The notes beneath the pieces were generated by a model. It was not told the origin of the DNA. It made no database searches and worked only from the letters and a program-made list of their open reading frames with translations. Shown piece after piece: positions 1-20,179 of a stretch of DNA of 55,285 nucleotides. The DNA is from Cryomorphaceae bacterium (GTDB taxonomy: Bacteria > Bacteroidota > Bacteroidia > Flavobacteriales_D > SKUL01). The stretch's first letter is position 1. Each line of letters begins with the position of its first letter. The stretch covers positions 1-55,285 of the forward strand of contig REDV01000095.1 of NCBI GenBank assembly GCA_007695365.1, in the 5' to 3' direction. The position numbers and the translations under genes are program-made.

Positions 1-1484
1 CCCACGCGATGTGACTGCCAGAAATAGATGCCGGCAAAGGTCTCCGAACCCTCTTTTTCAGTAGGTCGGGCCGGAATCAGCTTGATGGTGTCGGAAGCGC
101 TCAATGGGGTAATGGAGGCAGCTTCGCGCCAGTTTTTAAACGCTTCGCTTTTGTCCAGGCCCTTGATGGCCTTTTGATCAGTTAGGTGGATTTCCGGTGC
201 CTGGTCTTTCATGCGTTCCGAGAAGATGGTATTGGAGAATTCAACCAGTTTCGGTGTTGATCTCCACGACATTTTCAGCAGTTCGATGTTCAGGTTTCGA
301 TTGTCATCCTGCTTTGTAAATTCATTGATTACGCCTTGAATCAGTTGCGGATCGGTGCCGCGAAAACCGTAAATGGACTGTTTGGGGTCACCCACCCAGT
401 AGGAATGTTTTACCAATTCCGAGAGCTTGATGAAAATGCTGAGCTGGATGGGGTTGGAGTCCTGAAATTCATCTACCATCACCAGGTCAATGGTGTGATT
501 GATTTCCTCCATTACAATGGGATTGTCAAGGAGCTGAAGGAAGTAGACTTCCATGTCGGTGAAGTCCACCAGGCCGCGTTCGAGCTTAAACGATTGGTAG
601 GAATCCATCGCCCTCCTGGCCACATCGAAAACGAGCGTGGTGTATTCGAGCACCATTTCGCGGAGCAGGTCGATTTGGGGATAATCGAACTCAGGAATTT
701 GGGTATAGATATCAGTATATTTTTGAGCATTGTAAACACCGCATATACTCTTATACAGCTTCCAGAAATCCCTGATGTCCTTTAAAGTGACTTCCCGGGC
801 ATCCAGTTTGCTCAGGTACTTGTCAAATTCCTGTTTGATTTTGGGATATGTTTTGTTGTCGAGTACATTCTCAAACATCACATTTTTGCACTGTTCTACC
901 ACTTCCGGGAATACACTGCCTTTTAGCGTACCCGAAAAAATTTCTTCTGCTTTCTTGAGGCTGAACTGCTGGCTTTGCTCATCGTTGAGGTCAATGTGAT
1001 TGCTTTGGGCCTCTTCCATTATTTTCAATACATCCTGGCGCCATTTTTCGGGGATGTAATGACCCAGTGGGGTGCAAAAATTAAACGAAAAGTTGAGGTG
1101 CGAAAGCCGGTCTAGTTCCTGATCTGTAGGCACTTCGGCAATGGCTTGTGTAAAGAAAACCTCTTGTTCATTTTCGCTGATTTCGCGCACTTCCGGTGAA
1201 ATGTCCAGCAGGTACCAGTACTTCTTGATAAAAGTGTACCCTACGGAATGTATCGTCCCCATCAGGGCTTCCTGCAATTGGTTGGCCTCGTTAAAGCGCT
1301 GTTCACTGAGCATTCTGCCCTGGGCTTTTTCGCGTATTTCAGCTGCGGCCTTTTTGGTAAAGGTGGTGAGCAATACTTTTTGAGGGGCATTGTTTTTCTC
1401 CACAACCCAGGAGTACAGGTGCTCGATAAGGCTGTATGTTTTACCGCTTCCGGCGCCGGCATTGATAAAGGTGATGTTTTTCAT
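1..1484 (-). CDS. UvrD/RecB-family (AddA-like) DNA helicase, N-terminal part; runs off the window start
   Basis: Superfamily 1 helicase, presumably working with the nuclease encoded just upstream of it to process DNA ends. The minus frame is open from an ATG at 1484 to the window edge, giving 494 residues and no stop. Walker A (GAGSGKT, residues 10-16) sits at the very N-terminus. Motif II is VDEFQDSNPIQ, with DEFQD at about 338-342. It is followed by VGDPKQSIYGFRG, typical of UvrD/RecB enzymes, and by a WRS motif. The long insertion between motifs I and II resembles RecB/AddA more than compact UvrD. The start lies 9 nt after the TAG stop of the nuclease gene, so the two are almost certainly co-transcribed. 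The C-terminal half is not visible, so whether it carries its own nuclease domain is unknown. Confidence 0.92.
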   Translation of the reverse strand, partial: MKNITFINAGAGSGKTYSLIEHLYSWVVEKNNAPQKVLLTTFTKKAAAEIREKAQGRMLSEQRFNEANQLQEALMGTIHSVGYTFIKKYWYLLDISPEVREISENEQEVFFTQAIAEVPTDQELDRLSHLNFSFNFCTPLGHYIPEKWRQDVLKIMEEAQSNHIDLNDEQSQQFSLKKAEEIFSGTLKGSVFPEVVEQCKNVMFENVLDNKTYPKIKQEFDKYLSKLDAREVTLKDIRDFWKLYKSICGVYNAQKYTDIYTQIPEFDYPQIDLLREMVLEYTTLVFDVARRAMDSYQSFKLERGLVDFTDMEVYFLQLLDNPIVMEEINHTIDLVMVDEFQDSNPIQLSIFIKLSELVKHSYWVGDPKQSIYGFRGTDPQLIQGVINEFTKQDDNRNLNIELLKMSWRSTPKLVEFSNTIFSERMKDQAPEIHLTDQKAIKGLDKSEAFKNWREAASITPLSASDTIKLIPARPTEKEGSETFAGIYFWQSHRV

Positions 1485-1493
1485 GGATGGTGG

Positions 1494-4163
1494 CTATTGA
1501 AGTGTTCCTTTCAAGAAGTTAAATCCTGTGTAGGGAATCGTTTTCTTTGTGTTATTTTCTTCGGGCAATGGAATAAGGTTGGGCTCCTGGTGGTATGCCA
1601 GGCTGGAGAGGTCGGGACCCTCGCCAAATTCAACTTTACCCTGCCTGAGTTCGCTCCAGCGAAACTCCAGTGATCGCTTCAGTTTGGAAAGAATTTCGCT
1701 ATTCCCGGCCGTTGATGGTACTTTTTGTACACCTCTCCCCTTGAGGTCAGCAGCAGTGAGGAGTTTACCCTGGTCCAGCAGGAAATAAGCGGTGCGGGCT
1801 TGTTCGCGTTCGTTGAGCGCTGCGGTATACAGCGCCAATTGGATGGCGGCACCGTCCTCAATTTTCTTGATGTATTTTTTGTCCGAATACGTCCACTTCA
1901 TATCGATGATAAAGTGTTGTCCATTGCTGTCTTTGAGCAACAGATCAATATAGCCCCTCACATATCCCAAAGCCTCGTCCACAATGCAATCTTCATCGTA
2001 GCCGAAAGATTGTTCGCAGGCTTCCACCACAAAATTGTTTCCAGTGATGATTTCCTGCAGGTTGCGAACGGATTTCCAGAGTTTGTAACGGAACGCGCTC
2101 ATAGCGAACCGGTTTTCGGGTTGTAAAAATGTAGCTCCTTCTGTATGGATCACGTGGTCAAAAGTAATTTTGAATTCATTTTCGGAAATATTGAAAGTAG
2201 ATTGACCAATGGCGTGTTGAATAAAAAGGTTCTCTACCACTTTATGGGCAATGTTTCCGAGCAGCAGGTTGTCCGAGGGGATGCTCAACCCGCGATTGTC
2301 TTCAAACAGCGCCACGTATTGCAGTACCCAGTCCAAGGGGTATTCGATAAATCGCTCCAATGAACTGACGCTTTCAACAGGCCGTCTGGGGATGATTTTG
2401 AACGTTTGATCCGAGAGCGCTTCAACTTGTTCCTGAAGCGGAAGCATGCGTTGGGTCTCAAAGGCAGATTGAAAGATAGCGCGATCAATGAGCGCGATAT
2501 CGTTTTGGATATCCTGTACAACAGCGAGAATGTTTTCGGTGCTTTCGCCAAAAAGCGATTCCATACGGATGTGTAAGGGGTGCTTATCGACGCCCTCTTG
2601 TTCGATGAAACAAAGCTTGAGTTTGTTTTGCGTGCGCGCAATGCCACGCACCCATTGTTCCAGTTGAAGGTTGACCTGTGCTTCAGGACTGTAATAGGTG
2701 CTGTGATCTTTCAGGAATTCGCGCTCCTCGTGCAGCAAAAATTTCCCCACCGTTGCTTTGAGCGGGTGATCGTAAAAATTCAGGGCAACAACCTCTTTGG
2801 CGGTAGTGGAGGCAACAGCACCGAAATCGTCCACAACGCAAACGCTGTTTTGCTGTCGCTGGTAATTGGTGAAATGCGTCGATTCGTAGATTCCCTGAAA
2901 TATTTTTTCTATTTCCTTTGCGTTGCCTTGCTCCGGAATCAACTGAAGGGTTTGCTGACACAAGCTGTCGAGGTATGTAAACTGTTCCCTTATTTCTGGG
3001 GGCAGTCCGGCCTTGCACTTTTCCTGAATCCATTTTTGTAAAAACTGCAGCAAGCTTTTCGCCCGTTTGCGCACCGTGGCATCGTCGCGTTTTTCAAAAG
3101 TCAGAAACAGTTCAATGATATTTTGGCGCCTTTTGATTTCATGTTCCTCGGGCGCGGCATCTTCGCCTTGGCCGCTCAGGTAATTTTCAATCACCGCATT
3201 CCATTCCGCGTTGCCCACACCGGGTTTGTCGGCCAGGCAGCGGGTAAGTTGGTACGATAGTTTTCTGTCAATGGGGGAGTAGCGCAACTGCAACAACGAA
3301 AGCAACGCGTGAATATTCAACTCCCCGGTAATGCACGGAATAACCAGTTTGTACAGTTGAATGGTCATCGGGTTGGCGGCCAGTTGTTTTGAGCCGCTGG
3401 CGCTTTTGCCAAATGAAACAAGGCTGTAGTCGAAGTTGGCGTTGTCGCGGTTGATGAAAACGTGTTTTTCGGCGTCGGCGCAATAGGCCATGGCGTCGCA
3501 CATTTCCTGCTGGTTGTTGAAACGGATAAGTTGCAGGCTGGGGTCCTCATCTAAAGGAGCCAAAGTTCTTTTTGGTTTTTTTCCGCGCAATGCGGCCTGG
3601 AACATCCCGAGGTTGTTGGTGGGCTCAGGTTCCGCAGAATCCGCTTCAGAAACCCTGTTCCCGAGGGCCTTCAGTACCCGCTGAATCATGGGTGGCAGGT
3701 GTTCGGTTTTGTCGTGCAGCACGATATATTCGAAACAAATTTCCTTCGGATTGGCTTTTTCAATGGCCTGCAGCACATTGCGCCACCGGTCGGGTATGCC
3801 CGTGAAGAATGGAGTTTGCTGAAAGGCCGCTTCAACTGTTGCCAGTTGGCCGAGTCGTTGGGGCTGGTTTTTCATATTGTGCTGCCACCCCATAGCGATC
3901 AGCTCGTCGCGATACCCCAATAATTCCTGGGACACTTTGAGCTCATCCTTTTGCAGTGAATTGTAAAAGAAGTTATCGTCGCCGGATTTTTTCAGGCAAT
4001 CGAGCCAGGCTTTCAGCCGCTCGTCGGGCTGCGGAAAAAAATCGAACAGCCCAAGCTCGCGCTCCAGCAGACTCAGCAAGGTCAACGGCCCCACCGGGCG
4101 GCTGCCATCATCGTTTTCTTTGTACGGGCGTCCGTCGTAGGCAGTAGAAAAAAGTAGTTTCAT
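1494..4163 (-). CDS. AddB-like protein with C-terminal RecB-family PD-(D/E)XK nuclease
   Basis: An 889-residue protein whose last quarter is a RecB/Cas4-type nuclease. The visible elements are GNIAHKVVE (His at about 640), GYID (Asp about 740), IDMKW (Asp 754, Lys 756) and QLALY (from about 775), so all catalytic positions are intact. The central region is rich in helical, divergent sequence, as in inactivated helicase-like AddB/RexB scaffolds. Unlike Bacillus AddB it shows no N-terminal Walker A and no cysteine cluster after the nuclease motifs that could hold an iron-sulphur cluster. It is first in a two-gene operon, followed after 9 nt by the helicase. Known AddAB pairs resect double-strand breaks and degrade foreign linear DNA. 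Whether this pair does repair, defence or both is inference. Confidence 0.85.
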   Translation of the reverse strand: MKLLFSTAYDGRPYKENDDGSRPVGPLTLLSLLERELGLFDFFPQPDERLKAWLDCLKKSGDDNFFYNSLQKDELKVSQELLGYRDELIAMGWQHNMKNQPQRLGQLATVEAAFQQTPFFTGIPDRWRNVLQAIEKANPKEICFEYIVLHDKTEHLPPMIQRVLKALGNRVSEADSAEPEPTNNLGMFQAALRGKKPKRTLAPLDEDPSLQLIRFNNQQEMCDAMAYCADAEKHVFINRDNANFDYSLVSFGKSASGSKQLAANPMTIQLYKLVIPCITGELNIHALLSLLQLRYSPIDRKLSYQLTRCLADKPGVGNAEWNAVIENYLSGQGEDAAPEEHEIKRRQNIIELFLTFEKRDDATVRKRAKSLLQFLQKWIQEKCKAGLPPEIREQFTYLDSLCQQTLQLIPEQGNAKEIEKIFQGIYESTHFTNYQRQQNSVCVVDDFGAVASTTAKEVVALNFYDHPLKATVGKFLLHEEREFLKDHSTYYSPEAQVNLQLEQWVRGIARTQNKLKLCFIEQEGVDKHPLHIRMESLFGESTENILAVVQDIQNDIALIDRAIFQSAFETQRMLPLQEQVEALSDQTFKIIPRRPVESVSSLERFIEYPLDWVLQYVALFEDNRGLSIPSDNLLLGNIAHKVVENLFIQHAIGQSTFNISENEFKITFDHVIHTEGATFLQPENRFAMSAFRYKLWKSVRNLQEIITGNNFVVEACEQSFGYDEDCIVDEALGYVRGYIDLLLKDSNGQHFIIDMKWTYSDKKYIKKIEDGAAIQLALYTAALNEREQARTAYFLLDQGKLLTAADLKGRGVQKVPSTAGNSEILSKLKRSLEFRWSELRQGKVEFGEGPDLSSLAYHQEPNLIPLPEENNTKKTIPYTGFNFLKGTLQ

Positions 4164-4211
4164 GGATATCGTGTTGGTTGACTGTTGGCTCGCTAATCTA
4201 ATTAAATTAAA

Positions 4212-4373
4212 CCCAAATTATGCAGTAGGAGGAGCGATGAGCTCTGAACTATCTGCCTTAGTTGGGTTAACCCCGATCTAGAGAATCACTTTTTCAGTGC
4301 GGCGAAGCGTGCTGAAAATGGTTGATTCTCTTTATCGAATATGCTCTAAGCAAGGCTTATTGCATATTTTGGG
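4212..4373 (+). repeat. 162-bp MITE-like element, left copy
   Basis: Begins CCCAAATTATGCA and ends TGCATATTTTGGG, imperfect 13-bp terminal inverted repeats with one mismatch. The whole 162 bp reappears in opposite orientation at 10097-10258, with about 19 mismatches by hand alignment (roughly 88% identity). It encodes nothing obvious. The flanks TTAAA and ATAAA could be a decayed target duplication. It lies upstream of the nuclease gene and may separate it from the island. Confidence 0.75.
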
Positions 4374-4529
4374 ATAAATGTACCGTGTGTTATGAGCTGC
4401 TGTCACCATATCATTACGTCTGGTCACGGAATCATTGACAAAGTATTTTAAGATATTCTCTTGTTGTCAACGTAAGTCAAACATTTACAAACTGTTGAAG
4501 AATCAATCCTGGCAGGATTAAAATTCGTT

Positions 4530-4568
4530 CCAAATTATGCGATAAGCGGTGCTTATCGCATAATTTGG
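4530..4568. repeat. Perfect 18-bp-arm hairpin related to the MITE ends
   Basis: The arms 4530-4547 and 4551-4568 are perfectly complementary around the 3-nt loop ggt. The arm begins CCAAATTATGC and contains ATAAGC, matching the terminal and internal palindromes of the 162-bp element, so this may be a minimal derivative of it. It is not followed by a T-tract, so it is not a typical terminator. Part of the right arm (4557-4567) is also complementary to 4659-4669, the start region of the next gene. Confidence 0.8.
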
Positions 4569-4586: not shown

Positions 4587-4622
4587 TGTCAATCATTTCT
4601 GCAAGCTGCGTATTTATTCCTG
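4587..4622 (+). promoter_or_regulatory. Conserved leader box upstream of A1
   Basis: A segment TGTCAAtcATTTCTGC followed by cTGCGTATTTATTCCTG sits 78 nt before the A1 start. A nearly identical segment lies 79 nt before A2 (5832-5867), and a more diverged one lies 134 nt before A3 (8302 onwards). Conservation of non-coding sequence along with the genes may mark a promoter or RNA leader, or may simply be duplicated with them. The function is not known. Confidence 0.45.
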
Positions 4623-4664
4623 TCGGCAAAGCCAAATCAGTATTCACCATTAAAACCACAAATT

Positions 4665-5201
4665 ATGCGTCAAGACGAAGAGCATGACATGGATGATTTC
4701 GAAGATGATGTACAACCCTACAAAGAGCGGTTCACTTCTACTTTTGCGCGGTACGAGTGGCATTTACATATCCTGACCTTATCAAGCGGGGGTAACACCA
4801 TATCGCCGAAACAGGTGTTTGAATTGCTGGACGAGGCAGTGTTTCATAAAGTTGCGGTTGTGAGTGATTTTACGGGACTTGCATTTCTGCCCGCTGCGGG
4901 TTCCGTATTGTGGGGAGCCATCAACGAAGTGCTCTATCACTATTACAAAGTGAGAGTGTATGCTGTTATACACTCCATGCCTGTCAATCGGCCCGAAGCT
5001 GTTTTTGGTTCAGCGCGTCTCAATGCGGCCGTAGAAGTGATGCGTCCATTTTATCGTGAGATTCGGGGCGAATTGGATTGGTGCAGAATGATGGGGCCGT
5101 TAATGCTGGATATGTATTCGCACGGTGTACCCGATTGGATTGAGGAAATGAAAAATGGACTCGCTGCTGCATGTGAAGCCTGTGAGGTACCAAAGCCATA
5201 A
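4665..5201 (+). CDS. A1: hypothetical protein of the local W...[LF][WF]xx[IV]N family
   Basis: 178 residues, no signal peptide or membrane segment, acidic N-terminus, so probably cytosolic. Visible pattern: WHLHILT (Trp 32), LAFLP (72-76), LWGAIN (Trp 83, Asn 87), then a conserved stretch around FGSARLNAA. A2 shares all of these at nearly identical positions. A3 and both B proteins share the Trp and the [LF][WF]xx[IV]N signature at similar spacing. The alternating hydrophobic pattern suggests an alpha/beta domain. It is followed after 26 nt by B1, and the A1-B1 pair is repeated as A2-B2. The ATG is supported by alignment with A2, where GTG occupies the same place. I do not recognise the family; no function is proposed. 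Confidence 0.8.
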   Translation: MRQDEEHDMDDFEDDVQPYKERFTSTFARYEWHLHILTLSSGGNTISPKQVFELLDEAVFHKVAVVSDFTGLAFLPAAGSVLWGAINEVLYHYYKVRVYAVIHSMPVNRPEAVFGSARLNAAVEVMRPFYREIRGELDWCRMMGPLMLDMYSHGVPDWIEEMKNGLAAACEACEVPKP

Positions 5202-5227
5202 AGAACAAACTGAGATAATAAAGCGAT

Positions 5228-5770
5228 ATGCCGAAAAATGAATTCGATAGATTAGAGGTGAAGGATTACCTGGGAATGGATTGGCGCGAACACGTGTGTC
5301 ATTTTATGAACCGCCCGTGGAATGTTCAGATGGTGTCTTACGAAAAAATGCCTCAGTACCGCCAGGAAATTGAAACTACGCTCGAAGTGGTGATGCGGTC
5401 CGTGGGGTTTACATTTGTACACAGCCTAAACGACCATACTGTGATGGTTTATGGTCCGTTGGTGCGCAGGTCGTTTTGGAGCATGGTGAACCAATACCTT
5501 GAGCGCGAAATTAAAACCACCCTGGTTGTAATCAACATGAATACAGCCATGGAGGATCTTTTTGCAACAGGGCAGGAAAATCCAGCAGGTTTGGCGCTCC
5601 ATCGATTCAAACATTATAAAACTGTAGTGAGCGAGCTGGTAGAAGAAGTATCCGACCATCCGCTTACCATATCAGAAAGAGATTGCTTGCGCAGGAAATA
5701 TGAGTCCGAACACTACGTAAAACGCAGAATGGCCGCAGCGCTTGGCTTGCGTTCGATGGAAGAAGAATAG
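5228..5770 (+). CDS. B1: hypothetical protein, second member of the A-B pair
   Basis: 180 residues, apparently cytosolic. B1 and B2 are clear paralogues. Shared blocks are EHV..F.N..W.[VI]QMVSY (Trp 31 in B1), GF[TS]FVHS, a D.TV.[MV]Y.P strand and FW.MVN (Trp 84, Asn 88). The 53- and 57-residue spacings from the first Trp to the second Trp and to Asn are close to the 51 and 55 of A1, so A and B are probably distant relatives of one fold. The C-terminal third is helical and charged, ending in basic residues and an LGLRS tail (LGLNT in B2). The start ATG is 26 nt after A1; an internal ATG at residue 18 is an alternative. Function unknown. Confidence 0.78.
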   Translation: MPKNEFDRLEVKDYLGMDWREHVCHFMNRPWNVQMVSYEKMPQYRQEIETTLEVVMRSVGFTFVHSLNDHTVMVYGPLVRRSFWSMVNQYLEREIKTTLVVINMNTAMEDLFATGQENPAGLALHRFKHYKTVVSELVEEVSDHPLTISERDCLRRKYESEHYVKRRMAAALGLRSMEEE

Positions 5771-5831
5771 GCGTGCAGCTCTGGTAGCGTGGAGGTTTCG
5801 GAATGGAATGATCATTTGATTCGCCAAAGGG

Positions 5832-5867
5832 TGTCAATGATTTCTGCCTCCTGCGTATTTATTCCTG
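5832..5867 (+). promoter_or_regulatory. Conserved leader box upstream of A2
   Basis: Second copy of the leader segment described before A1, 79 nt ahead of the A2 start. The stretch between box and start is also shared, including GTATTCACCATTAAAACCA immediately before the start codon. The duplicated unit is therefore leader plus A plus B. Confidence 0.45.
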
Positions 5868-5910
5868 CCGGCATGGGGTAAGGCAGTATTCACCATTAAA
5901 ACCAATACTT

Positions 5911-6432
5911 GTGAGTCAAAACAAAACAGACAGAAAGGATGATTTTAATAAGGATGGCAGAAATCGCTTGATGTGCGTTTTTTCGCATCACGAATGGCAA
6001 CTCCATTTGCTGACCTGTGCAGTTCTGGATGATGAAAATCCGCCGCGAAAAGTTTTCGGGGCATTGGAGCAAGCGGGGTTTGCCAAAATTGTATTGGTGA
6101 GTGAACGTACAGGAATGGCTTTCTTGCCTACGGCAGAGGAAGCGTTATGGAAACCAATAAATTACGTGCTTTACAAAAAGTTTAAGGGAAACGTCTATGG
6201 GCTGCGGCATACCCATCCAGAAGACAGACCATTCGCGGCGTTCGGAACTGCCAGGCTGAATGCTGCCTATGAGGAGTTAAAGCCTGTAATACAGGAAACC
6301 AGGGATGAATTGGCCAGGTGCCAGAACAATGCGTCGTTCGCGCCCGACAGGTATGCAGCCAATGTGGAGCATTGGGGTGCTGCTATGCAGGAAAATTTAG
6401 CTGCCGCGTGCGATGAGGTGTTAGAAGAGTAA
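5911..6432 (+). CDS. A2: hypothetical protein, paralogue of A1
   Basis: 173 residues with a GTG start that aligns with the ATG of A1 (GTG AGT CAA against ATG CGT CAA), including the preceding leader. Conserved positions are WQLHLLT (Trp 29), MAFLP (69-73), LWKPIN (Trp 80, Asn 84) and FGTARLNAA. The N-terminal 20 residues are hydrophilic and diverged from A1. There is no export signal. It is followed after 18 nt by B2. Divergence is considerable at the protein level although the architecture is colinear, so the duplication is not recent. Function unknown. Confidence 0.78.
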   Translation: MSQNKTDRKDDFNKDGRNRLMCVFSHHEWQLHLLTCAVLDDENPPRKVFGALEQAGFAKIVLVSERTGMAFLPTAEEALWKPINYVLYKKFKGNVYGLRHTHPEDRPFAAFGTARLNAAYEELKPVIQETRDELARCQNNASFAPDRYAANVEHWGAAMQENLAAACDEVLEE

Positions 6433-6450
6433 TAAATGAAATGAGTCAAC

Positions 6451-6993
6451 ATGTATCAATCACAAATACAGCTAAGTAACTCGTTCACCATGAACAGGTG
6501 TGAACATGTGTATTATTTTGTAAACCATTCGTGGAGCATTCAGATGGTATCGTACGCCGGTCAACCGCAATACCATAAAGAAGCAGAAGCCACATTGGAA
6601 ATTGTTCTGCGGGCTATAGGTTTCAGTTTTGTGCACTCCATTGATGATGATACGGTGCTGATGTACGCTCCAGTCATCCGTCCGTCGTTTTGGGGAATGG
6701 TCAATGATATGATTGAGGAGCATGTCAAAACCCCGATTGTTGTTTCAGACCTGAAATCAGAAATTGATCATCTGACTCCAGTTGGTGAGGAGGAGATGAT
6801 GGCCCGTATTTTTTCCAGGTTGAAAGAATATGAAAGGCTTGTAAAGGAAATGCGTGTCGAAATGGACGCACATCCATTGTCGGAATCAGACAGGTATGAC
6901 CTCGGAAGAAAATGTATGTCCCGATACCCTGTAAACAACAGAATAACAATAGCCTTGGGTCTGAATACCTATGCAAAAGAAGTATGGCCGTGA
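6451..6993 (+). CDS. B2: hypothetical protein, paralogue of B1
   Basis: 180 residues, the same length as B1. It keeps WSIQMVSY (Trp 28), GFSFVHS, TVLMYAP and FWGMVN (Trp 81, Asn 85), with a helical, charged C-terminal half. The start ATG at 6451 lies 18 nt after A2; a second ATG at residue 14 is possible. It is followed after 22 nt by the small C protein, so A2, B2 and C probably form one transcript. Function unknown. Confidence 0.78.
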   Translation: MYQSQIQLSNSFTMNRCEHVYYFVNHSWSIQMVSYAGQPQYHKEAEATLEIVLRAIGFSFVHSIDDDTVLMYAPVIRPSFWGMVNDMIEEHVKTPIVVSDLKSEIDHLTPVGEEEMMARIFSRLKEYERLVKEMRVEMDAHPLSESDRYDLGRKCMSRYPVNNRITIALGLNTYAKEVWP

Positions 6994-7015
6994 TAAACCT
7001 TAAAATACCTTGTTT

Positions 7016-7246
7016 ATGATTTCTGGACCTGAATACTGCTACATGCTCTTTCATCGCGATCCTGAAATTTTAGAGGCTTTGAGCTGGGAGCTTATAACCA
7101 TCCCGGGCAGATCACTGCAATTTGTTAACGACCGCATGCTTCTGATCACCTCAGATTTGGATAGAGAAGATATATTCGGAATTTACAGATCTCTTCATTT
7201 TGTCATCAATGAAAAAGGGCTGTTTATTCTGCAGGCCGAGCCATAA
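7016..7246 (+). CDS. C: small hypothetical protein, possible shortened relative of the A/B family
   Basis: 76 residues from the ATG at 7016. Its central stretch NDRMLLITSDLDREDIFGIY resembles the strand-turn-helix of B proteins (D.TV.MY.P......FW.MVN), with IFGIYR in place of FWGMVN. The first conserved Trp block is not recognisable. It could be a minimal version of the same domain or a remnant of another copy. It follows B2 closely on the same strand. Function unknown. Confidence 0.5.
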   Translation: MISGPEYCYMLFHRDPEILEALSWELITIPGRSLQFVNDRMLLITSDLDREDIFGIYRSLHFVINEKGLFILQAEP

Positions 7247-7271
7247 CCACAAAAGCCGAAAAAATTGGACG

Positions 7272-7373
7272 ATGCACTTGATAAGATATTTGCCAAAAGA
7301 CCCTTATACAGGAATTGATGATATGGATGAATCTGAAAATTCAGTGGTCCAATTTCACGCAAACTCTTCATAA
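7272..7373 (+). CDS. Very short ORF between C and E, doubtful
   Basis: A 33-codon ATG frame (MHLIRYLPKDPY..., ending HANSS) fills most of the gap between the two neighbours on the same strand and in the same direction. It has no homologue known to me and no clear ribosome-binding site. It may be a remnant or chance. Confidence 0.15.
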   Translation: MHLIRYLPKDPYTGIDDMDESENSVVQFHANSS

Positions 7374-7388
7374 AAACTCATTGGATAC

Positions 7389-7622
7389 ATGAAAGAGAGA
7401 GTACACATAGAAGCATTGGAAAATGATGATTTCGCTATAAAGGTAGGCGACAAAATCATAGGAAGATTGCTGCGAACCGCTGAATGGAACGGGTACGATT
7501 GTATTTTGGAATTTGAATCTTCCGAGCCTTTTGATGATTTCAGAGTAAGCTCATTAATGCAGGGTGCGTTCATTATTCGGAATCACTACGAAAAGACTTT
7601 TGGAAAGCAGTTGAATCTTTAG
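7389..7622 (+). CDS. E: small hypothetical protein
   Basis: 77 residues, ATG start, acidic and soluble (MKERVHIEALENDDFAI...). No signal peptide, cysteine motif or membrane segment. The pattern of short alternating hydrophobic stretches suggests a small beta-rich domain. It does not carry the Trp/Asn signature of its neighbours. It lies in the island on the same strand, 142 nt after C, and is followed by a stretch with transposase debris. Not recognised. Confidence 0.5.
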   Translation: MKERVHIEALENDDFAIKVGDKIIGRLLRTAEWNGYDCILEFESSEPFDDFRVSSLMQGAFIIRNHYEKTFGKQLNL

Positions 7623-7720
7623 GAAATGGTGTTTGTTGCTTTTTAGCATCTACATCATGTTGCTGCCCTCTAAATAGCCGGACACGATTACGGAAAAATA
7701 ATTCGTAATCACGAACGTGA

Positions 7721-7838
7721 AAAAGAATGAAAAAGGAACCAAGAAGTTCACCAATAAGAAAAGCTGGCTATCCTGAAGGAAGCTCGTGAAGCAGATGTAA
7801 GGGGTTCACTGGTTAGGTTTTCAGGCATTTTCGTGTGA
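7721..7838 (+). pseudogene. Probable decayed IS3-family OrfA fragment
   Basis: Two overlapping frames together resemble the N-terminus of an IS3-type OrfA. One reads KKNEKGTKKFTNKKS. The other, from 7761, reads KLAILKEAREADVRGSLVR and ends in TGA at 7836-7838. KLAILKEA is a typical OrfA helix. A frameshift near 7755-7765 and an early stop mean nothing functional remains. No terminal repeats are visible. The rest of the gap between E and F (7623-7917) shows no gene. Confidence 0.4.
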
Positions 7839-7917
7839 GCAGTATTGGGTTTATTTAATGACTACTGTCAAAGATTACCCTCCGTATCGTTTATTGTAGA
7901 TAGAAAGACAAAACAAA

Positions 7918-8250
7918 ATGACAACAGCTTCATTTACCATCCTTATGGATATTTCAAGACATGCCGAGAACCTCTTTTTTGATCTGGAAGGAACGGCCCT
8001 TAATCAGAAAGATGTGGATAGGTTGCATTCGGGAATAGCCAAGGCTTTTGAAATAGACACCAGCCAGGTTATTTCCACCTACCATTACTATGAACGACGG
8101 CTGGAATACCTGACGGAACAGGAGTCGTTGATGCGCAATGCGTTGTCAGCTCAGGGTTCGGATTCAACAGCACTGAACCTGGAACAGAAAGTTGAACTGG
8201 ATCAGAGTATGCTCGATTCCATAGTAGAAGAAACAGCCGATGTACATTAG
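7918..8250 (+). CDS. F: small hypothetical protein
   Basis: 110 residues, acidic, no export signal. The N-terminal half begins MTTASFTILMDISRHAEN; the C-terminal half is predicted helical and glutamate/glutamine rich (YERRLEYLTEQESLMRNAL), possibly a coiled coil. It lacks the Trp/Asn signature of the A/B proteins. It lies between the transposase remnant and the leader of A3, on the same strand. Not recognised; no function proposed. Confidence 0.5.
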   Translation: MTTASFTILMDISRHAENLFFDLEGTALNQKDVDRLHSGIAKAFEIDTSQVISTYHYYERRLEYLTEQESLMRNALSAQGSDSTALNLEQKVELDQSMLDSIVEETADVH

Positions 8251-8301
8251 AGCCTGGCAATGTGCAGCAGGAATCTTTTTGAATAAAAACGGCAGTGGGG
8301 G

Positions 8302-8337
8302 TGTCAAGGATTTTTGCCCCTTTGCGTTTAATGAATT
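8302..8337 (+). promoter_or_regulatory. Diverged leader box upstream of A3
   Basis: GTGTCAAgGATTTtTGCC followed by TTTGCGTTTaat matches the leader boxes of A1 and A2, but lies 134 nt before the start rather than 78-79. A second shared patch, aaccaaaaccaatt, precedes the start codon, as in A2. Confidence 0.35.
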
Positions 8338-8435
8338 ACGCAAGGCTTCATCACCGGTGTTTCCGGGCAAATCAACGGGATGATACCGCCTTAATGAGAA
8401 GTGGCTAGAATGATAATAACCAAAACCAATTGCCA

Positions 8436-9005
8436 ATGAGACAAGAAAATCAGAATCCCATAAAGTGTTTCGATATGTTCACACCTTTTATACATCAACA
8501 TCACGACGCAACGTGGACCATTCATTTATTGACTGTTGAAATAGAAGACATCGATAAGTTGCGTGATTTTCAGTCAGATTGCAGCGCGTTCAGTTCACTT
8601 ACCCACTTGCTGAACTGGGCTGGGATTCCTTTTGTAATCGGACTGACCAACTGGAAATGCCTGGCTTACCTTCCGAGTAATGGTGGCCAGCTATTTACCG
8701 ATATCAATGACTTGCTCGGGGATTATATAGGTGTAGAGTTTACAATTCTCGAAGTCTCCGCGGATGCTGTGAATAGCATGAAAGGAGGAGTACAGGATTT
8801 CTGGACGGACAATCAGATAGTCAAGTTCAAAAAAATGATTCAAATGATCGACACCCATTTGTTGAATTATAGTCGCAGGGCGTTGTCGGAGCATGAATTG
8901 AATGAGATCCTCGATGTTATTGCGCGCAAAGGCTTGGATAACCTGCCTTGCCACGCCTATCAATTGCTTTTGAACCACAGCAAATTCCTGCGTCAATCGG
9001 CATAG
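8436..9005 (+). CDS. A3: hypothetical protein, diverged third member of the A family
   Basis: 189 residues from ATG 8436, chosen over an upstream TTG because it begins MRQ like A1 and follows the same AACCA-type leader. Conserved elements are WTIHLLT (Trp 27), LAYLP (76-80) and LFTDIN (Asn 91). An insertion of about nine residues between the Trp block and LAYLP, plus a different C-terminal half, separate it from A1 and A2. No B partner follows; instead G1 starts 56 nt downstream. Soluble, no signal peptide. Function unknown. Confidence 0.72.
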   Translation: MRQENQNPIKCFDMFTPFIHQHHDATWTIHLLTVEIEDIDKLRDFQSDCSAFSSLTHLLNWAGIPFVIGLTNWKCLAYLPSNGGQLFTDINDLLGDYIGVEFTILEVSADAVNSMKGGVQDFWTDNQIVKFKKMIQMIDTHLLNYSRRALSEHELNEILDVIARKGLDNLPCHAYQLLLNHSKFLRQSA

Positions 9006-9061: not shown

Positions 9062-10045
9062 ATGAAATACCTGAATTCCGATTTTTCTTTGACCAATGAT
9101 TCGTTAGTAATAAGTGAAGATGGTGAGCACACCACACCCGTCATCAGTGTTTTGATTCGCATGATGCGCGAGGCTCAGGTGAAGACGCTGTATTCGGTGG
9201 AAGACCTGCGCGAATTTATTTTCAGAGTGATTTTATTGTATGGCCGCGACCGTCTCATGTTGGGGGACGCTGGAAGTGAATTTGTTGTGAAGGCCATAGC
9301 AGATGAAAAGCCTGTTGCGATTGACCTGACCACATTGCATGAGTATGTGGGGATCGCTTCAGAGCAAGGAAGTCTCGGGTTTTCAGACAGGGAGGATTTC
9401 ATTGCATACCTCCGAAAAACGCATACGGCATCTGAAGCCCGAAAAGCGGCAGACAAAAACCTTCCTGATAACGTAGTGCGCTATGTTGGCCCTATGCAGA
9501 TTGAAGGAGAGGATTCAGGCATTGATATCAGTGATGACATCATTGAGCGCTGTGCGGCTCTTGCAGAGAAGCTATTTGCGCAAAGCAATGTTGAGGTGTT
9601 TGAGGAGTTTGAGGAAAAACACACTGACACCATCGATGCCTTGAAACAGCGGATTGCGCTGAGGGGGTCTGTGGCCTTCCATATTCAAAAGGTGCCATTT
9701 GAGGTTATGGAGGAGTGCGTGGCCTTTTTGCGCGAGGAATACGGCTACGACAAAGAGCTATTGAAAAAGCGAGATGCGGAGGAGTTCGCGCTGGATTTCG
9801 ATTTGATTGAACTGGCCTGGGCATTTGCCAATGACCTGTGCGAATACGAAATCATGGAATCCGTGCCTGTGGCTGCCTGGCCCAAAGAAATACTCGACCT
9901 GGATATTGATAAGTACCAGGGTTTGCAGGGCGATGAAATTGGCGGCATCAATTTGCTGGACACCATCCATTATTATAAGCTCGCTGAACTGGAGCCTTTG
10001 TTGAAGGGCGTGGAGATGGCAACGGAAAAGGTGAAAGGACAATGA
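9062..10045 (+). CDS. G1: hypothetical protein, paralogue of G2
   Basis: 327 residues, strongly acidic, no signal peptide or membrane segment. G1 and G2 are colinear. Shared blocks include YSVEDL.E[FL].FR..LL near residue 45, [ED]FVVKAIA-like and LHEYVG-like stretches, FHI-type KVPFEV.E.C..FLR near 220, E[FL]...F.LIELAWA.AN near 265, and a C-terminal ELAELEP.LKG.EM-like tail. The region before the ATG, ATTCACTTTAACCCCCAATT, resembles the sequence just before A1 and A2, suggesting shared control. I do not recognise the family. Confidence 0.72.
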   Translation: MKYLNSDFSLTNDSLVISEDGEHTTPVISVLIRMMREAQVKTLYSVEDLREFIFRVILLYGRDRLMLGDAGSEFVVKAIADEKPVAIDLTTLHEYVGIASEQGSLGFSDREDFIAYLRKTHTASEARKAADKNLPDNVVRYVGPMQIEGEDSGIDISDDIIERCAALAEKLFAQSNVEVFEEFEEKHTDTIDALKQRIALRGSVAFHIQKVPFEVMEECVAFLREEYGYDKELLKKRDAEEFALDFDLIELAWAFANDLCEYEIMESVPVAAWPKEILDLDIDKYQGLQGDEIGGINLLDTIHYYKLAELEPLLKGVEMATEKVKGQ

Positions 10046-10096
10046 TTTGAATAGCGAAAGGCAAGTATTACCGGATTAGAAGCAAATAAGTATTAA

Positions 10097-10258
10097 CCCA
10101 AAATATGCAATAAGCACGGCTTATTGCATATTCGATAAAGAGAATCAAACTTTTACAGTCCGCTTCGCCGTACTGAAAAAGTGATTCGCTAGATCGGGGT
10201 TATCCCAACTAATGCAAGTAGTTCGGAGCTTATCGCTCCTCCTATTGCATAATTTGGG
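10097..10258 (-). repeat. 162-bp MITE-like element, right copy (inverted)
   Basis: Inverted counterpart of 4212-4373. It is flanked on both sides by ATTAA (10092-10096 and 10259-10263), a plausible 5-bp target-site duplication. One end contains a near-perfect internal hairpin with arms ATATGCAATAAGC and GCTTATTGCATAT (a 3-nt loop between them). It lies between G1 and G2, 52 nt after the G1 stop and 26 nt before the G2 start, so it may affect G2 expression. It is too short to encode a transposase and would need one in trans. Confidence 0.78.
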
Positions 10259-10284
10259 ATTAACAAACAATAAACATTTAAAAT

Positions 10285-11250
10285 ATGAACTTTATCGTAC
10301 CTGATTTTTCTTTAATGAGTTTCCCCAATAATTTCGCAAAGGCAAGTGAACAGCAACAAGATGAATTGAAATTGTTGTTTCAGCTAATGGCTAAAGTTGG
10401 CGTTTTTTCGATTTTTTCGAAGGAAGATTTACATGAATTATTGTTCCGAACAGTTCTGTTGACCCATTGTAATTCAACGGGAAATAAAGAAACTGAAGGG
10501 CAATTTTTGGTGAAAGGAACAGTAAACGGCAAAGCTGTTTCGCTCGCGTTGGGTAAGTTGCAGAACTTTGTTGGGCTTTCTGCAAAAGAGGGATATATGG
10601 GTTCGACAGAACGAGCAGATTTTACCCGTGATCTGAAGCAAAATGAATTGTCAGCAGACGAGAAAGATGATGCCATGATGATTCTTTCGGAATCCCTTGA
10701 GCGTAAAATAGACAAGGTGCATATTGTTAGAGAAATGTCCATGGGGGAAGTTTCTGAAGCAGTCATTCAGGGCGCTGAGGATATGGCGCAACAGATTATG
10801 GAAAAGTATGACCCCGCAATTTTCAGTAATTTTTTGAACACCCATTCTTCAGCCCTTGGTGATCTTGAGAAGCGCGCAGCCTTGAGAAATTCTATTGTTT
10901 TTCAGATTGAGCATGTGCCATTTGAGATAGTTGAAAAGTGCATTCAATTTTTACGCGGCGATGAATATGATAAGGAAAAATTGCGCAACCTCGATCGGGA
11001 GGAATTCATCATAGAGTTTGTCTTAATCGAGCTGGCCTGGGCGGTGGCAAATGGTTTAGTTGAAATCAGCATACACGAGCCTTTTGAGTGGGTGAGCGAA
11101 TCTTATGCTTTTGATGTCACCAACTACGACGGGTTGCAGACAGATGAGGAGACGTCGGGCGGAATTAATTTGTGGCTTACTTACGACGGCTATGAACTCG
11201 CTGAACTGGAGCCTATGTTGAAGGGCATTGAGATGCCCCGCAAAAATTAA
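10285..11250 (+). CDS. G2: hypothetical protein, paralogue of G1
   Basis: 321 residues, acidic and soluble. It aligns with G1 from the LYSVEDL region (IFSKEDLHELLFRTVLL here) to the C-terminal YELAELEPMLKGIEM tail, including HVPFEIVEKCIQFLR and FVLIELAWAVANG. The extreme N-terminus and the 110-180 region are the most diverged. It is separated from G1 by the MITE. It is the last gene of the plus-strand island and faces the minus-strand secreted operon. Function not recognised. Confidence 0.72.
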   Translation: MNFIVPDFSLMSFPNNFAKASEQQQDELKLLFQLMAKVGVFSIFSKEDLHELLFRTVLLTHCNSTGNKETEGQFLVKGTVNGKAVSLALGKLQNFVGLSAKEGYMGSTERADFTRDLKQNELSADEKDDAMMILSESLERKIDKVHIVREMSMGEVSEAVIQGAEDMAQQIMEKYDPAIFSNFLNTHSSALGDLEKRAALRNSIVFQIEHVPFEIVEKCIQFLRGDEYDKEKLRNLDREEFIIEFVLIELAWAVANGLVEISIHEPFEWVSESYAFDVTNYDGLQTDEETSGGINLWLTYDGYELAELEPMLKGIEMPRKN

Positions 11251-11394: not shown

Positions 11395-12507
11395 TTAGAA
11401 ATACCGCACCGGACGGACGCGGAGATAAGTGGTTTTAGCCGAGAATCCCGATTGGCCTGTGCCAAAATGAATGCTTTTGGCGCTCGCCGCGCCGTCTTCA
11501 CTTGAACTCCAATAGGCAGCACTTTCAAAGTTGCCCATTTCTGCCTCAGCAAGATGTGCATACAGCAATTCCAGTTCATCAATACTGGGCAGAAACCAGT
11601 CGTCATATCCTGCGTTGCTGTAGTCGTTGCAAAGCTGAGCGGCCTGAAAACAACTGCTGCACGAGTTCAGAATCAATTGTGTATTGGATTGCCCCGATCC
11701 GAGTATGTCGGATGTGCCGAATGTTTCCAATTGACAGCACCACGCACCGGTACCGGCATCGTCACTTGCGGCAACAAGTCCGTGGGTTTCGCCCGCAACA
11801 TATCCATTGTCGCCGGGTTGGAAAATATAGGCCAGTATTCCACCATATGCACTGATTCCCGGACTTGCAAAGTCAATATTCACATCATCCTGATGTTGTC
11901 CACACGGCCCGGCAATCGTCCAGCGCAGCGTGTAAGAAGATTCAGGTTGCACGCTCAGGGTGGCGTTCGGGTTGTTGGGGTCGCTGAGGCTTCCGCCCGA
12001 ACCGGAGAGGATGGTCCAGGTGCCACTCTCACCCAAGGCAACCGGGTTTGCCGATAAAGTCACCAGGTTGCTACTGGCTGTATAGAGCTGATCCGGTCCG
12101 GCGTCGGCCACAGTGGTGACGGGCATATTGAGCGCATCTGTTGGTTTGGTGGTCGAGCTTCGCTGAGCACCCGCTACCGCACGAACCTGAAACTTCACTT
12201 CGTGACATTCTTCCAGTTGGCTGTCAGGAATTACAGCCTCGTCTGTCCATTCGGTGCGATGCCCTTCGAGGAAAATGGTTTCCGTTTCACCGCTTGTTTC
12301 CTTGATGATTTCCAGTCCATCAATTCGTGTTTCGTCCTGCTCCCAGCTTAATTTTACTGCGTTGGTGCTTAGAATTTCCACCTGCAGATTGGCGGGCATC
12401 CAGGCTTCAGGTGGTGTTTCGGGGTCGTAGGGGTTGTTGAAGTCTTTCTCACACGCCGTCAATATCACCAGGCAGTACAGCAAGAAATATGTAACGGGGC
12501 TTTTCAT
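11395..12507 (-). CDS. Lipoprotein with fibronectin-III-like region and C-terminal DUF1566 (Lcl) domain
   Basis: 370 residues with a lipoprotein signal peptide (lipobox LTAC, lipidated Cys 19). Residues about 35-120 look like a fibronectin type III domain (LQVEILSTNAVKLSWEQ...). A PKD/immunoglobulin-like middle region follows (VADAGPDQ...). The last 170 residues match the DUF1566/Lcl C-terminal domain: DDWFLPSIDELELLY, AAYWSSSE and the terminal LRVRPVRYF. This domain is related to the FISUMP module of two proteins in the same operon and is usually found on surface or secreted proteins. It is the last of seven genes, starting 2 nt after the preceding stop. Likely displayed at the outer membrane; partner unknown. 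Confidence 0.82.
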   Translation of the reverse strand: MKSPVTYFLLYCLVILTACEKDFNNPYDPETPPEAWMPANLQVEILSTNAVKLSWEQDETRIDGLEIIKETSGETETIFLEGHRTEWTDEAVIPDSQLEECHEVKFQVRAVAGAQRSSTTKPTDALNMPVTTVADAGPDQLYTASSNLVTLSANPVALGESGTWTILSGSGGSLSDPNNPNATLSVQPESSYTLRWTIAGPCGQHQDDVNIDFASPGISAYGGILAYIFQPGDNGYVAGETHGLVAASDDAGTGAWCCQLETFGTSDILGSGQSNTQLILNSCSSCFQAAQLCNDYSNAGYDDWFLPSIDELELLYAHLAEAEMGNFESAAYWSSSEDGAASAKSIHFGTGQSGFSAKTTYLRVRPVRYF

Positions 12508-12509
12508 TT

Positions 12510-13850
12510 TTAAAAGTTGCTGGTGTAACCAATGGCTGCGCCCCCTTCAACAGGTATTGCGGTCAGTCCCCATTCGCGTTTCTGTTTCTGCAGCTTGTTG
12601 TTAAACAGGAGGGAGCCTATGAGCGCAGCGCCTCCGGCCGCAAAGGCAATCGGGTAGATGGTGCGTGCGGTGAGCACTTGCTCGCGCAATGCCGCAGCTT
12701 CAGTGGTGGCGTTTTGGTATTTGTTGTAGTCGTTAATGCCCGAATACAAATAGTATCCTCCGGTACCCACACCCGCAAGACCAACGGTGAGTAATCCCCA
12801 TTTGGCTATTTTGGGTGGATTTAGCGCTTTGCGGTAATTCTTCAACCGGAAATTTTCTTTGGACTCTGCATTTTCATTCACAACAATGCTTTTTTCTGTT
12901 TCAAGGTGCCCACCTTTTTGCAGCTCAATGTGGTATTTGCCAATCAACCGCTGCTCCCTGTACGGAGTATTCCCCACCTGCTGTCCGTCAATTCGTATCG
13001 TTGCACCGCTCGGCTCGCTGTCGATTTGCAGCCAGCCGGTAATGGGCTTTAAATGAATGTTCAATACACTATCCATTCCGGAGGCCAGTGTCAATTGCGT
13101 TTCGAAAGGGTAGTGCTTTTCGAGCTGAACTTTGAGTTGGTAAATTCCCGGATCCAATCCATCTTCCGGTCCGGTTGCTTGATAGTCGCCTTGTCCTTTG
13201 ACCTGTTGATTCAGTACAATCTCACTGTTTTCGGGCATGGCCCGCACGCTGAGATTTGCCCAGATTGGCTTGAGGTTTACATGTAAGAAACGCTCCTGGT
13301 CTTTGTGGATTTGCAACGCAGTGTCCAGTTCAATGTAACGCTCTTTTTGAAGAACTACCCGGTGCGTTCCTGTCGGTAAGCGTTGCGAAAACGGGGTGCG
13401 CTCGGCCAGTTCCAGGTCGTTGAGAATAATGCGGATTTGCGGAGGATTGGAGGTGATGCTCAAAGTGCCGCGCTCGTCTGAAGTGGTGAGTACTTCTTCT
13501 ACTTTGTAGTAAAACACATCTTTGGGTTGTGGGTTGATCGTGGTCACCCGACGTTCCATAAATCCCGGCTTCGCCACAAAAACCATCTGCTTCACCGGGC
13601 TGCAAAACACTTCATAGCGATTGGCAGTGGTATTATAGGATTGTTGATTAATCGCCCCCATCGAACTGCGAAACTGTAGTCCTTCCAGGTCGGAGTATAT
13701 CAACAATAGTGCATTGTCCGGGTATTTTGTATTGGCTTGCACAACGGATGCTTCGGGGGCGGGGAGTTCGGTGACTGAAAACTCGTTGAGTTGGGCTAGG
13801 GTAGCACTGCTAGCCATCAATATGCCCAAAATGATGATTATGAACTTCAT
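12510..13850 (-). CDS. Exported PEGA-domain protein with C-terminal membrane segments
   Basis: 446 residues with an N-terminal signal peptide ending near LAQLNEF. Residues about 20-125 form a domain shared with the next two upstream genes (VVQANT...NALLLIYSDL, QFRSSMGAI, PVKQMVFVAK). Three PEGA-type repeats follow: GTLSITSNPPQIRIILN, ANLSVRAMPENSEIVLN and GWLQIDSEPSGATIRIDG. Two hydrophobic segments near 345-370 and 400-420 could anchor it, with the PEGA domains outside the cytoplasm. PEGA domains are associated with cell-envelope and surface proteins. It starts 11 nt after its upstream neighbour. Unlike its two relatives it lacks a FISUMP domain. Confidence 0.82.
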   Translation of the reverse strand: MKFIIIILGILMASSATLAQLNEFSVTELPAPEASVVQANTKYPDNALLLIYSDLEGLQFRSSMGAINQQSYNTTANRYEVFCSPVKQMVFVAKPGFMERRVTTINPQPKDVFYYKVEEVLTTSDERGTLSITSNPPQIRIILNDLELAERTPFSQRLPTGTHRVVLQKERYIELDTALQIHKDQERFLHVNLKPIWANLSVRAMPENSEIVLNQQVKGQGDYQATGPEDGLDPGIYQLKVQLEKHYPFETQLTLASGMDSVLNIHLKPITGWLQIDSEPSGATIRIDGQQVGNTPYREQRLIGKYHIELQKGGHLETEKSIVVNENAESKENFRLKNYRKALNPPKIAKWGLLTVGLAGVGTGGYYLYSGINDYNKYQNATTEAAALREQVLTARTIYPIAFAAGGAALIGSLLFNNKLQKQKREWGLTAIPVEGGAAIGYTSNF

Positions 13851-13861
13851 TTTCTCTGCTG

Positions 13862-15073
13862 TTAATCTTTGATGCAGCGTACCGAAAGTCCTACACGTTT
13901 TAGATAGGTACCTTTTCTAATTCGCTTTTTGATTCCCCTAACAAAAAGCATATTAGCATGGTGCTTTCCGTGTGAATCTGAAGACCAGAAAAACCCATAC
14001 ATTCGAGCTTTTTGAAATCCAACGGCTCTGCCCGGCTGTCTCAATCCACCTGGCAATGCATTGAAGCCGCTGGAATTGGTTGCTTTTTGGTTTTTTACTT
14101 TCCAAAAAGTTCTATCGGCACTCTTCATTTTTAGACCGGCATTACGATTGCCCCCGAGATATTTGATGAGTAGATTCCATTCCTGATTATTGGGTACGTG
14201 CCAACCTGCAGGGCAGACTCCTCTGCTGTCACCAATTGAATACCAGTTGTAAAGTTTTCCGTACGGATTTTCATATTCGGAGTTGTTGTCATACCAACAC
14301 CATCCACCTTGTTCAGACGTGCGCCACTCCTTTCTCTGTGAAATATTCGGAATTGGGTCTCCATTACGATATCGTCCTGTTTTTAAGTTTTCCGACATCC
14401 AGATTTGATTTCCAATCTTTATCGTTTTGTATTCATTTCCATCAATATCTGTAACTGAGTTTGGGCGCTGGTCTTCTTGCATTTTCAGGTAAACCGATGT
14501 TGCAGCTCCTGCAGATAATGTCACGGCCGTATCAATACTATGATAATCCTGTTTTATGACTCTGATTTTATACGTGGCAGCAGGCAATGCACCTTCGAAC
14601 GGTGTTTTATCACCTAAGGCTATTTCGTTAAGAAATATAGTACAGCCCTCAGGTTGCGTAATAATCTGCAAATTTCCAGGCTCATTGCTTGCGATTTGTT
14701 TACCTGTCACTTTGTAGGTGTGTAATGATTTCGGGTTTGGATTGATGTTTTCTATACGTTGCTCTATAAAATCTTTTTTCGCCACAAAAATTATTTGTTT
14801 CACGGGGCTGCAAAGCACTTCGTATCTGTTAGATATTGAGTTGTATGTTTGCTTGTTAATGGCTCCCATCGAACTGCGAAACTGTAGTCCATCCAGATCT
14901 GAGTAGATAAGCAGTAAGGCATTGTCAGAGAATTGAGTATTCGCTTGAACGATGGTTTCATTTGGGGTTGGAAGTTTACTTATTTCAAACTCATTGAGTT
15001 GGGCTATAGCGGTTTGCCCACCCAATATTAGGAGGAATGTCAATAGGAAAGAATGTGGCCAAACTGTTTTCAT
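13862..15073 (-). CDS. Exported protein: shared N-terminal domain, one PEGA, FISUMP domain
   Basis: 403 residues with a signal peptide. The N-terminal domain (about 25-125) is almost identical to that of the upstream gene. One PEGA repeat follows (GNLQIITQPEGCTIFLN). From about 205 comes a Fibrobacter succinogenes major paralogous (FISUMP) domain: DIDGNEYKTIKIGNQIWMSE, NGDPIPN, GKLYNWYS, GVCPAGWHVPN.QEW and the final GLSVRCIKD. FISUMP domains occur on many secreted Bacteroidota and Fibrobacteres proteins; their ligand is generally unknown. The start lies 4 nt after the upstream stop, indicating translational coupling. Confidence 0.85.
   Translation of the reverse strand: MKTVWPHSFLLTFLLILGGQTAIAQLNEFEISKLPTPNETIVQANTQFSDNALLLIYSDLDGLQFRSSMGAINKQTYNSISNRYEVLCSPVKQIIFVAKKDFIEQRIENINPNPKSLHTYKVTGKQIASNEPGNLQIITQPEGCTIFLNEIALGDKTPFEGALPAATYKIRVIKQDYHSIDTAVTLSAGAATSVYLKMQEDQRPNSVTDIDGNEYKTIKIGNQIWMSENLKTGRYRNGDPIPNISQRKEWRTSEQGGWCWYDNNSEYENPYGKLYNWYSIGDSRGVCPAGWHVPNNQEWNLLIKYLGGNRNAGLKMKSADRTFWKVKNQKATNSSGFNALPGGLRQPGRAVGFQKARMYGFFWSSDSHGKHHANMLFVRGIKKRIRKGTYLKRVGLSVRCIKD
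14840..15004. repeat. 165-bp segment identical to 16311-16475
   Basis: Base-for-base identical by eye to the other copy, 1471 bp away in the same orientation. It encodes residues of the shared N-terminal domain in both FISUMP genes, while flanking sequence is clearly diverged. This points to recent gene conversion or segmental duplication. Confidence 0.85.
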
Positions 15074-15077
15074 CGAT

Positions 15078-19999: not shown

Positions 20000-20152
20000 T
20001 GTAAACTCCGCAAAAACCAGACAGTTAAAAAAAAACATCTTTGAATGCGTATAAAAAAAGCAAGTTTACCCCAGCCCAGATTGTTAAAATTCTCAAGGAG
20101 AGGGAATCTGGAGCAAACATCGCATCGGTTTCACGAGATCACAAAGTGAGTA
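20000..20152 (+). pseudogene. Truncated left end of an IS3-family element with OrfA N-terminus
   Basis: From TTG 20041 the frame reads NAYKKSKFTPAQIVKILKER followed by ESGANIASVSRDHKVS, the characteristic first helices of an IS3-type OrfA. Similarity ends abruptly near 20150, where unrelated sequence follows. The sequence tgtaaactccgcaaaaacca, starting at about 20000, resembles the left inverted repeat of Bacteroidota IS3 elements. The right part of the element, including OrfB, is absent. The remaining bases between 19837 and 20179 show no gene. Confidence 0.7.
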
Positions 20153-20179
20153 CAGCCCCCCAAAACACTCCACCCCCGC

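Follow-up and report, generated by a model that had tools for sequence, protein, structure and literature searches.

Five small genes, which we call A1, B1, A2, B2 and A3, form a local amplification of a protein family that matches no known database family. A tandem duplication of an A-B operon together with its leader, with a third A copy downstream, is well supported, and A and B are probably ancient paralogues. Our results lead us to favor, tentatively and at somewhat less than an even chance, a reading of the array as a conflict or defense module of paired A/B proteins with which two further genes, F and G, are associated. Each of the five open reading frames was recovered where the initial annotation had placed it in the window, that is, the whole stretch of 55,285 nucleotides that was analyzed (Table 1). 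For A3, the ATG at 8436 is a more likely start than the TTG at 8430.

Table 1. Features of the array and its surroundings (positions in the window)
Feature	Position	Strand	Description
UvrD/AddA-like helicase	3..1484	-	cut by contig end
AddB-like PD-(D/E)XK nuclease	1494..4163	-	889 aa; probably accessory; divergent from array
MITE-like dispersed repeat copy	4207..4377	+	inverted partner at 10093-10263
Leader of A1, probably non-coding	4587..4664	+	82% identical to A2 leader
A1	4665..5201	+	178 aa; predicted ferredoxin-like N-terminal domain (~residues 32-105), then helical C-terminal part
B1	5228..5770	+	180 aa; predicted ferredoxin-like domain (~residues 31-103), then helical C-terminal part
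Leader of A2, probably non-coding	5832..5910	+	copied with the A-B unit
A2	5911..6432	+	173 aa; GTG start; A1 paralogue (41%)
B2	6451..6993	+	180 aa; B1 paralogue (40%)
C	7010..7246	+	78 aa; 16 bp downstream of B2
D	7389..7622	+	77 aa; ORFan
E	7918..8250	+	110 aa; ORFan
Shorter leader-related element 5' of A3	8301..8340	+	GTGTCAANGATTTNTGCC core
A3	8436..9005	+	distant A paralogue; earliest possible start (TTG) gives ORF 8430-9005
F	9062..10045	+	327 aa; its N-terminal domain has relatives next to recBCD (G095) and next to an integrase (genus g57)
MITE-like dispersed repeat copy	10093..10263	-	88% complementary to 4207-4377
G	10285..11250	+	321 aa; F paralogue (35%)
Truncated IS3-type transposase OrfA (HTH_Tnp_1) remnant	20044-20166
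AbiEii/AbiEi type IV toxin-antitoxin pair	21100-22742	-	12 kb from array

The two A-B units lie 1,245 bp apart and have gene order and leader in common. Identity is 41% between A1 and A2 (E 8e-43) and 40% between B1 and B2 (E 2e-46), and A3 is a more distant relative; the earlier suggestion of a local amplification is thus borne out. At the DNA level the A and B coding sequences are 54-56% identical between units, with synonymous sites saturated or nearly so, whereas the leaders of A1 and A2 are 82% identical over 78 nt. A 1-nt frame-shifting difference between the leader copies indicates that this block is probably not coding; from the two full copies compared, it either is functional, as a promoter or regulatory element, or has been kept alike by gene conversion. 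Differences between the paralogous genes fall mostly at codon position 3, and dN was below dS wherever dS could be computed; these are thus true genes, with purifying selection acting on the A pair, the B pair and F/G. The gaps of the array held no remnants of further A/B copies. Gene C is probably in one operon with B2, and it has a weak match to phrog_29504, a family of unknown function (E 0.003). By eye, the strand-helix pattern of C resembles that of A and B; no support was obtained for C, D, E or a 123-aa ORF of G095 as A/B relatives.

Two inverted copies of a 171-nt MITE-like repeat flank the segment from A1 to F. This repeat has 25 full or partial matches dispersed through the genome, many of them partial, and hence the two copies are not enough by themselves to define a transposon. 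Shortly 5' of A1, at 4530-4567, there is a near-perfect long hairpin (CCAAATTATGCGATAAGC...GCTTATCGCATAATTTGG, -26.9 kcal/mol) that consists of the end sequence of the same repeat.

The relationship between A and B was assessed with profiles. The initial annotation had noted a Trp motif and an Asn motif in all five proteins; both residues are invariant in a five-way alignment, as are M1 and a Pro between the two (W32, P76 and N87 in A1). The A profile matched A3 with an E of 5e-5 and the B profile with an E of 0.006 at a probability of only 6.5%, and the B profile matched A3 with an E of 0.02. All three alignments bring the Trp and Asn motifs together in the same register, which in the A-B match extends over about 75 residues, beginning at the Trp and ending shortly after the Asn. 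In 100 column shuffles, no score as high as any of these three arose. Against a null set of 53 unrelated or reversed proteins, the A profile scored 35.6 with A3, 26.9 with B2 and 22.4 with B1 (top null, 17.3), and the B profile scored 20.5 with A3, 19.2 with A1 and 17.6 with A2 (top null, 17.5). The similarity of A and B is therefore distinct with the A profile and marginal with the B profile on single A sequences; we regard the link of A to A3 as clear and that of A to B as moderate.

AlphaFold2 models were made separately from A-only and B-only alignments of two or three sequences. The B1 model has a moderate mean pLDDT of 69 (strands 31-38, 63-68, 71-77 and 99-103; helices 42-58 and 81-95), and the A1 model a weak one of 49 (strands 32-41, 63-65, 70-76 and 98-105; helices 48-57 and 79-94). 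Both give an identical βαββαβ ferredoxin-like order in the N-terminal part, at matching positions, with the Trp beginning strand 1, the Pro closing strand 3 and the Asn within helix 2. The same register and the same element order in separate models support a single predicted fold that was duplicated twice, short of proof where A versus B is concerned; they carry no information on function. The proposal that one fold lies behind A and B is supported in this sense; different folds, the outcome that would have spoken against it, did not appear in the models of A1 and B1, and profile searches did not place A and B in known families. It is very unlikely, in our view, that A and B are unrelated and that the Trp/Asn spacing reflects convergence of two alpha/beta proteins. 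Such convergence would fit the low A-B probability, the B-profile scores on single A sequences (17.6-19.2, barely above the top null) and the commonness of the ferredoxin-like fold, but it would have to produce three comparisons in one register that no shuffle reproduced, a shared fold order in separate models and adjacent genes.

Structure comparison of the A and B models returned generic ferredoxin-like chains, such as BPSL1038 (7vxr), 1zpv, 1vk8 and Cas2 structures, with a best Z below 7 and identity mostly of 5-15% (one row, 18%). The predicted βαββαβ order is common to the ferredoxin-like superfamily (ACT, Lrp/AsnC RAM, Cas2 and MTH1187-like domains), of which A and B, lacking a conserved ligand or catalytic residue, share the arrangement rather than the membership. 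Cas2/BPSL1038-like nucleases conserve an acidic residue that ends the first strand, which A and B lack, M1 and the Trp, Pro and Asn being the only invariant residues of the five; the likeness to the ligand-binding ACT and Lrp-AsnC domains is at fold level, with no Pfam match. No catalytic or binding motif was found in the array proteins.

Searches for relatives gave little, in keeping with the earlier view of an unrecognised family. No array protein reached the curated cut-offs of Pfam or NCBIfam, matched a known antiphage model of PADLOC or had a convincing match in PHROG, and a search of PDB sequences with the family gave nothing below an E of 0.09. Two Pfam matches, B1 with DUF327 and A3 with DUF6576, lay under the cut-off and were set aside. 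The five-way profile recovered its own members only among 349 genomes of the order, and among 395 genomes sampled from the phylum it found chance-like matches, which fell in the C-terminal helical half and mostly in short or broken frames; one of these was inspected at its locus (L034). Weak matches of the B query in relatives were also judged to be chance; those inspected were mreC in L007 and L012 and unrelated genes in L010. Neither the 84,980 species genomes scanned by pattern (A and F/G) nor the viral contigs (A, B and F/G) yielded relatives, although such scans detect close relatives only and remote homologues could escape them. With tblastn, A2 in phages, B1 and F in plasmids, and the F-like protein of G095 in plasmids and phages gave nothing or matches with an E of at least 0.1. 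As judged from sequence, the A/B family is apparently lineage-restricted.

To the left of the array lies an operon of a helicase and a nuclease gene, a type of cassette that occurs in anti-phage islands of plasmids. The 889-aa nuclease had no relative at an E of ≤1e-10 in 39 relatives, among them a same-genus genome that is 81% complete, and is therefore probably accessory; in that genome, the only other one of the genus that was compared, a contig edge falls at the array insertion site. Among the best plasmid matches listed, homologues of the nuclease (about 24% identity, 88-92% coverage) sit directly before a UvrD helicase gene. The adjacent, probably accessory UvrD helicase and PD-(D/E)XK nuclease genes correspond in gene order and size class to the AddAB-like pairs of plasmids pBb1S5b and pFN9B, a likeness of the neighboring operon and not of the array, with the helicase cut by the contig end here. 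The nuclease matched no PADLOC model. Four plasmid loci that were inspected had ThiF/JAB (CBASS-like), WYL regulator, HipA, DGQHR or SNF2 genes nearby and no A/B/F-like annotation, hypothetical genes being judged by annotation alone.

To the right of the array, F and its paralogue G carry a domain, 74 residues long in F, that recurs in G095, in a protein two genes past recB (E 2e-7). It also occurs in genus g57 (E 8e-5), where an integrase lies beside it and the neighbors vary. In G095 a single contig (L048, 873-12450) encodes RecC, RecB, the 123-aa ORF, the F-type protein, an ECF-like sigma factor and a DnaB-like ATPase, and also a reverse transcriptase close to retron/DRT and other defense RT models. 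In the g57 genomes (L049-L052) an integrase is followed by the F-domain protein, in two of them (L050 and L051) with an excisionase-like HTH gene also ahead of it, and adjoining genes vary among genomes; this locus is possibly a mobile defense island. In the window, the AbiE pair and the IS3 remnant precede fabD at 22.9 kb. An Lcl_C/fn3 protein is encoded at 11395-12507, and next to the array a series of surface-type proteins (PEGA, Fib_succ_major and the like) is encoded on the minus strand (12510-16550).

The helicase-nuclease neighbor and the F-domain relatives make a defense or conflict island plausible, and such a context for the array is likely. The nuclease cassette, the F-domain contexts, the AbiE pair and the IS3 remnant together suggest that the array lies within an accessory, defense-rich stretch with an inferred boundary. 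We consider it quite unlikely that A, B, F and G serve the AddAB-like helicase-nuclease as additional subunits or as regulators, within one multigene defense system. In favor of this, the array adjoins the cassette, and in G095, too, recBCD has an F-type protein after it. Against this, the array is on the opposite strand to the nuclease operon and 500 bp away, the four plasmid cassettes are without A/B/F-like annotation, and the F-type proteins of g57 have no such neighbor in the stretches read. A serious rival, which we nonetheless consider rather unlikely, is that the array is ordinary ORFan cargo of an island, kept locally or neutrally, with no conflict role and the nuclease nearby by chance. 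The lack of family matches and relatives, the divergence of the array from the nuclease operon, and the general plasticity seen in dispersed repeats and an IS remnant all agree with such cargo. Purifying selection on the A pair, the B pair and F/G does not, nor does the presence of the F-type domain near helicase-nuclease or integrase genes elsewhere.

We favor a conflict module because of the tandem units with their leader, the shared register and fold order of A and B, the purifying selection and the neighbors. The case is weakened because no A/B homologues were found outside this genome, because the folds are of low or moderate confidence and generic, and because the proteins have no catalytic or binding motif and match no known defense family. 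In such a module, A and B would be small proteins of the cytosol, each with a ferredoxin-like domain at the N terminus followed by a helical part. As they were duplicated together and retained as adjacent genes, we infer that they act as a pair, probably as a heteromer formed through the ferredoxin-like domains. The variable remainder may bind a fast-changing partner, such as an invader protein, nuclease or toxin, in which case extra copies would widen the recognized range, and F and G would be associated components. A more specific version, in which A, B and F/G are an unrecognised defense module, a heteromeric sensor of ancient paralogues that acts with a RecB-family helicase-nuclease and was diversified by unit duplication with a shared conserved leader, is very unlikely as a whole.

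The initial annotation, which tentatively raised an immunity or variable-defense role, had seen no toxin partner. Indeed, the scanned neighbors contained no toxin domain or toxin-delivery system, with the exception of AbiE, 12 kb off. This bears on another explanation, that the array is an orphan set of immunity (antitoxin) genes in which each A/B protein neutralizes a variant toxin delivered by a neighbor or encoded elsewhere. The form of the array fits such a set: the paralogues are small, soluble and divergent and lie in tandem, and one stretch of nucleotides is conserved better than the genes themselves. We still consider it unlikely, as no toxin or secretion gene was found nearby, two subfamilies strictly alternate and no relatives occur next to toxins elsewhere.

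Should the array prove to be a defense module, its duplication in pairs and its conserved leader would illustrate the growth of a small bacterial conflict array. As it stands, it adds a family without recognized relatives whose genomic setting is a testable lead on function: small proteins by an accessory helicase-nuclease, with an F domain that elsewhere lies close to RecBCD, to an integrase and to a reverse transcriptase. One of the closest parallels is with the immunity strings of type VII secretion (esaG, tsaI and tipC; PMC9484751), which are likewise tandem, non-identical small paralogues. In esaG strings, blocks are better conserved than the genes through gene conversion (PMC9484751); blocks conserved beyond the genes in these strings recall the A1/A2 leader. 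Unlike them, the A/B array has no toxin or secretion system nearby and alternates two subfamilies, and no sequence link between the two was found. Arrays of this type are already known among bacterial conflict genes; the proteins that form the present one match no known family.
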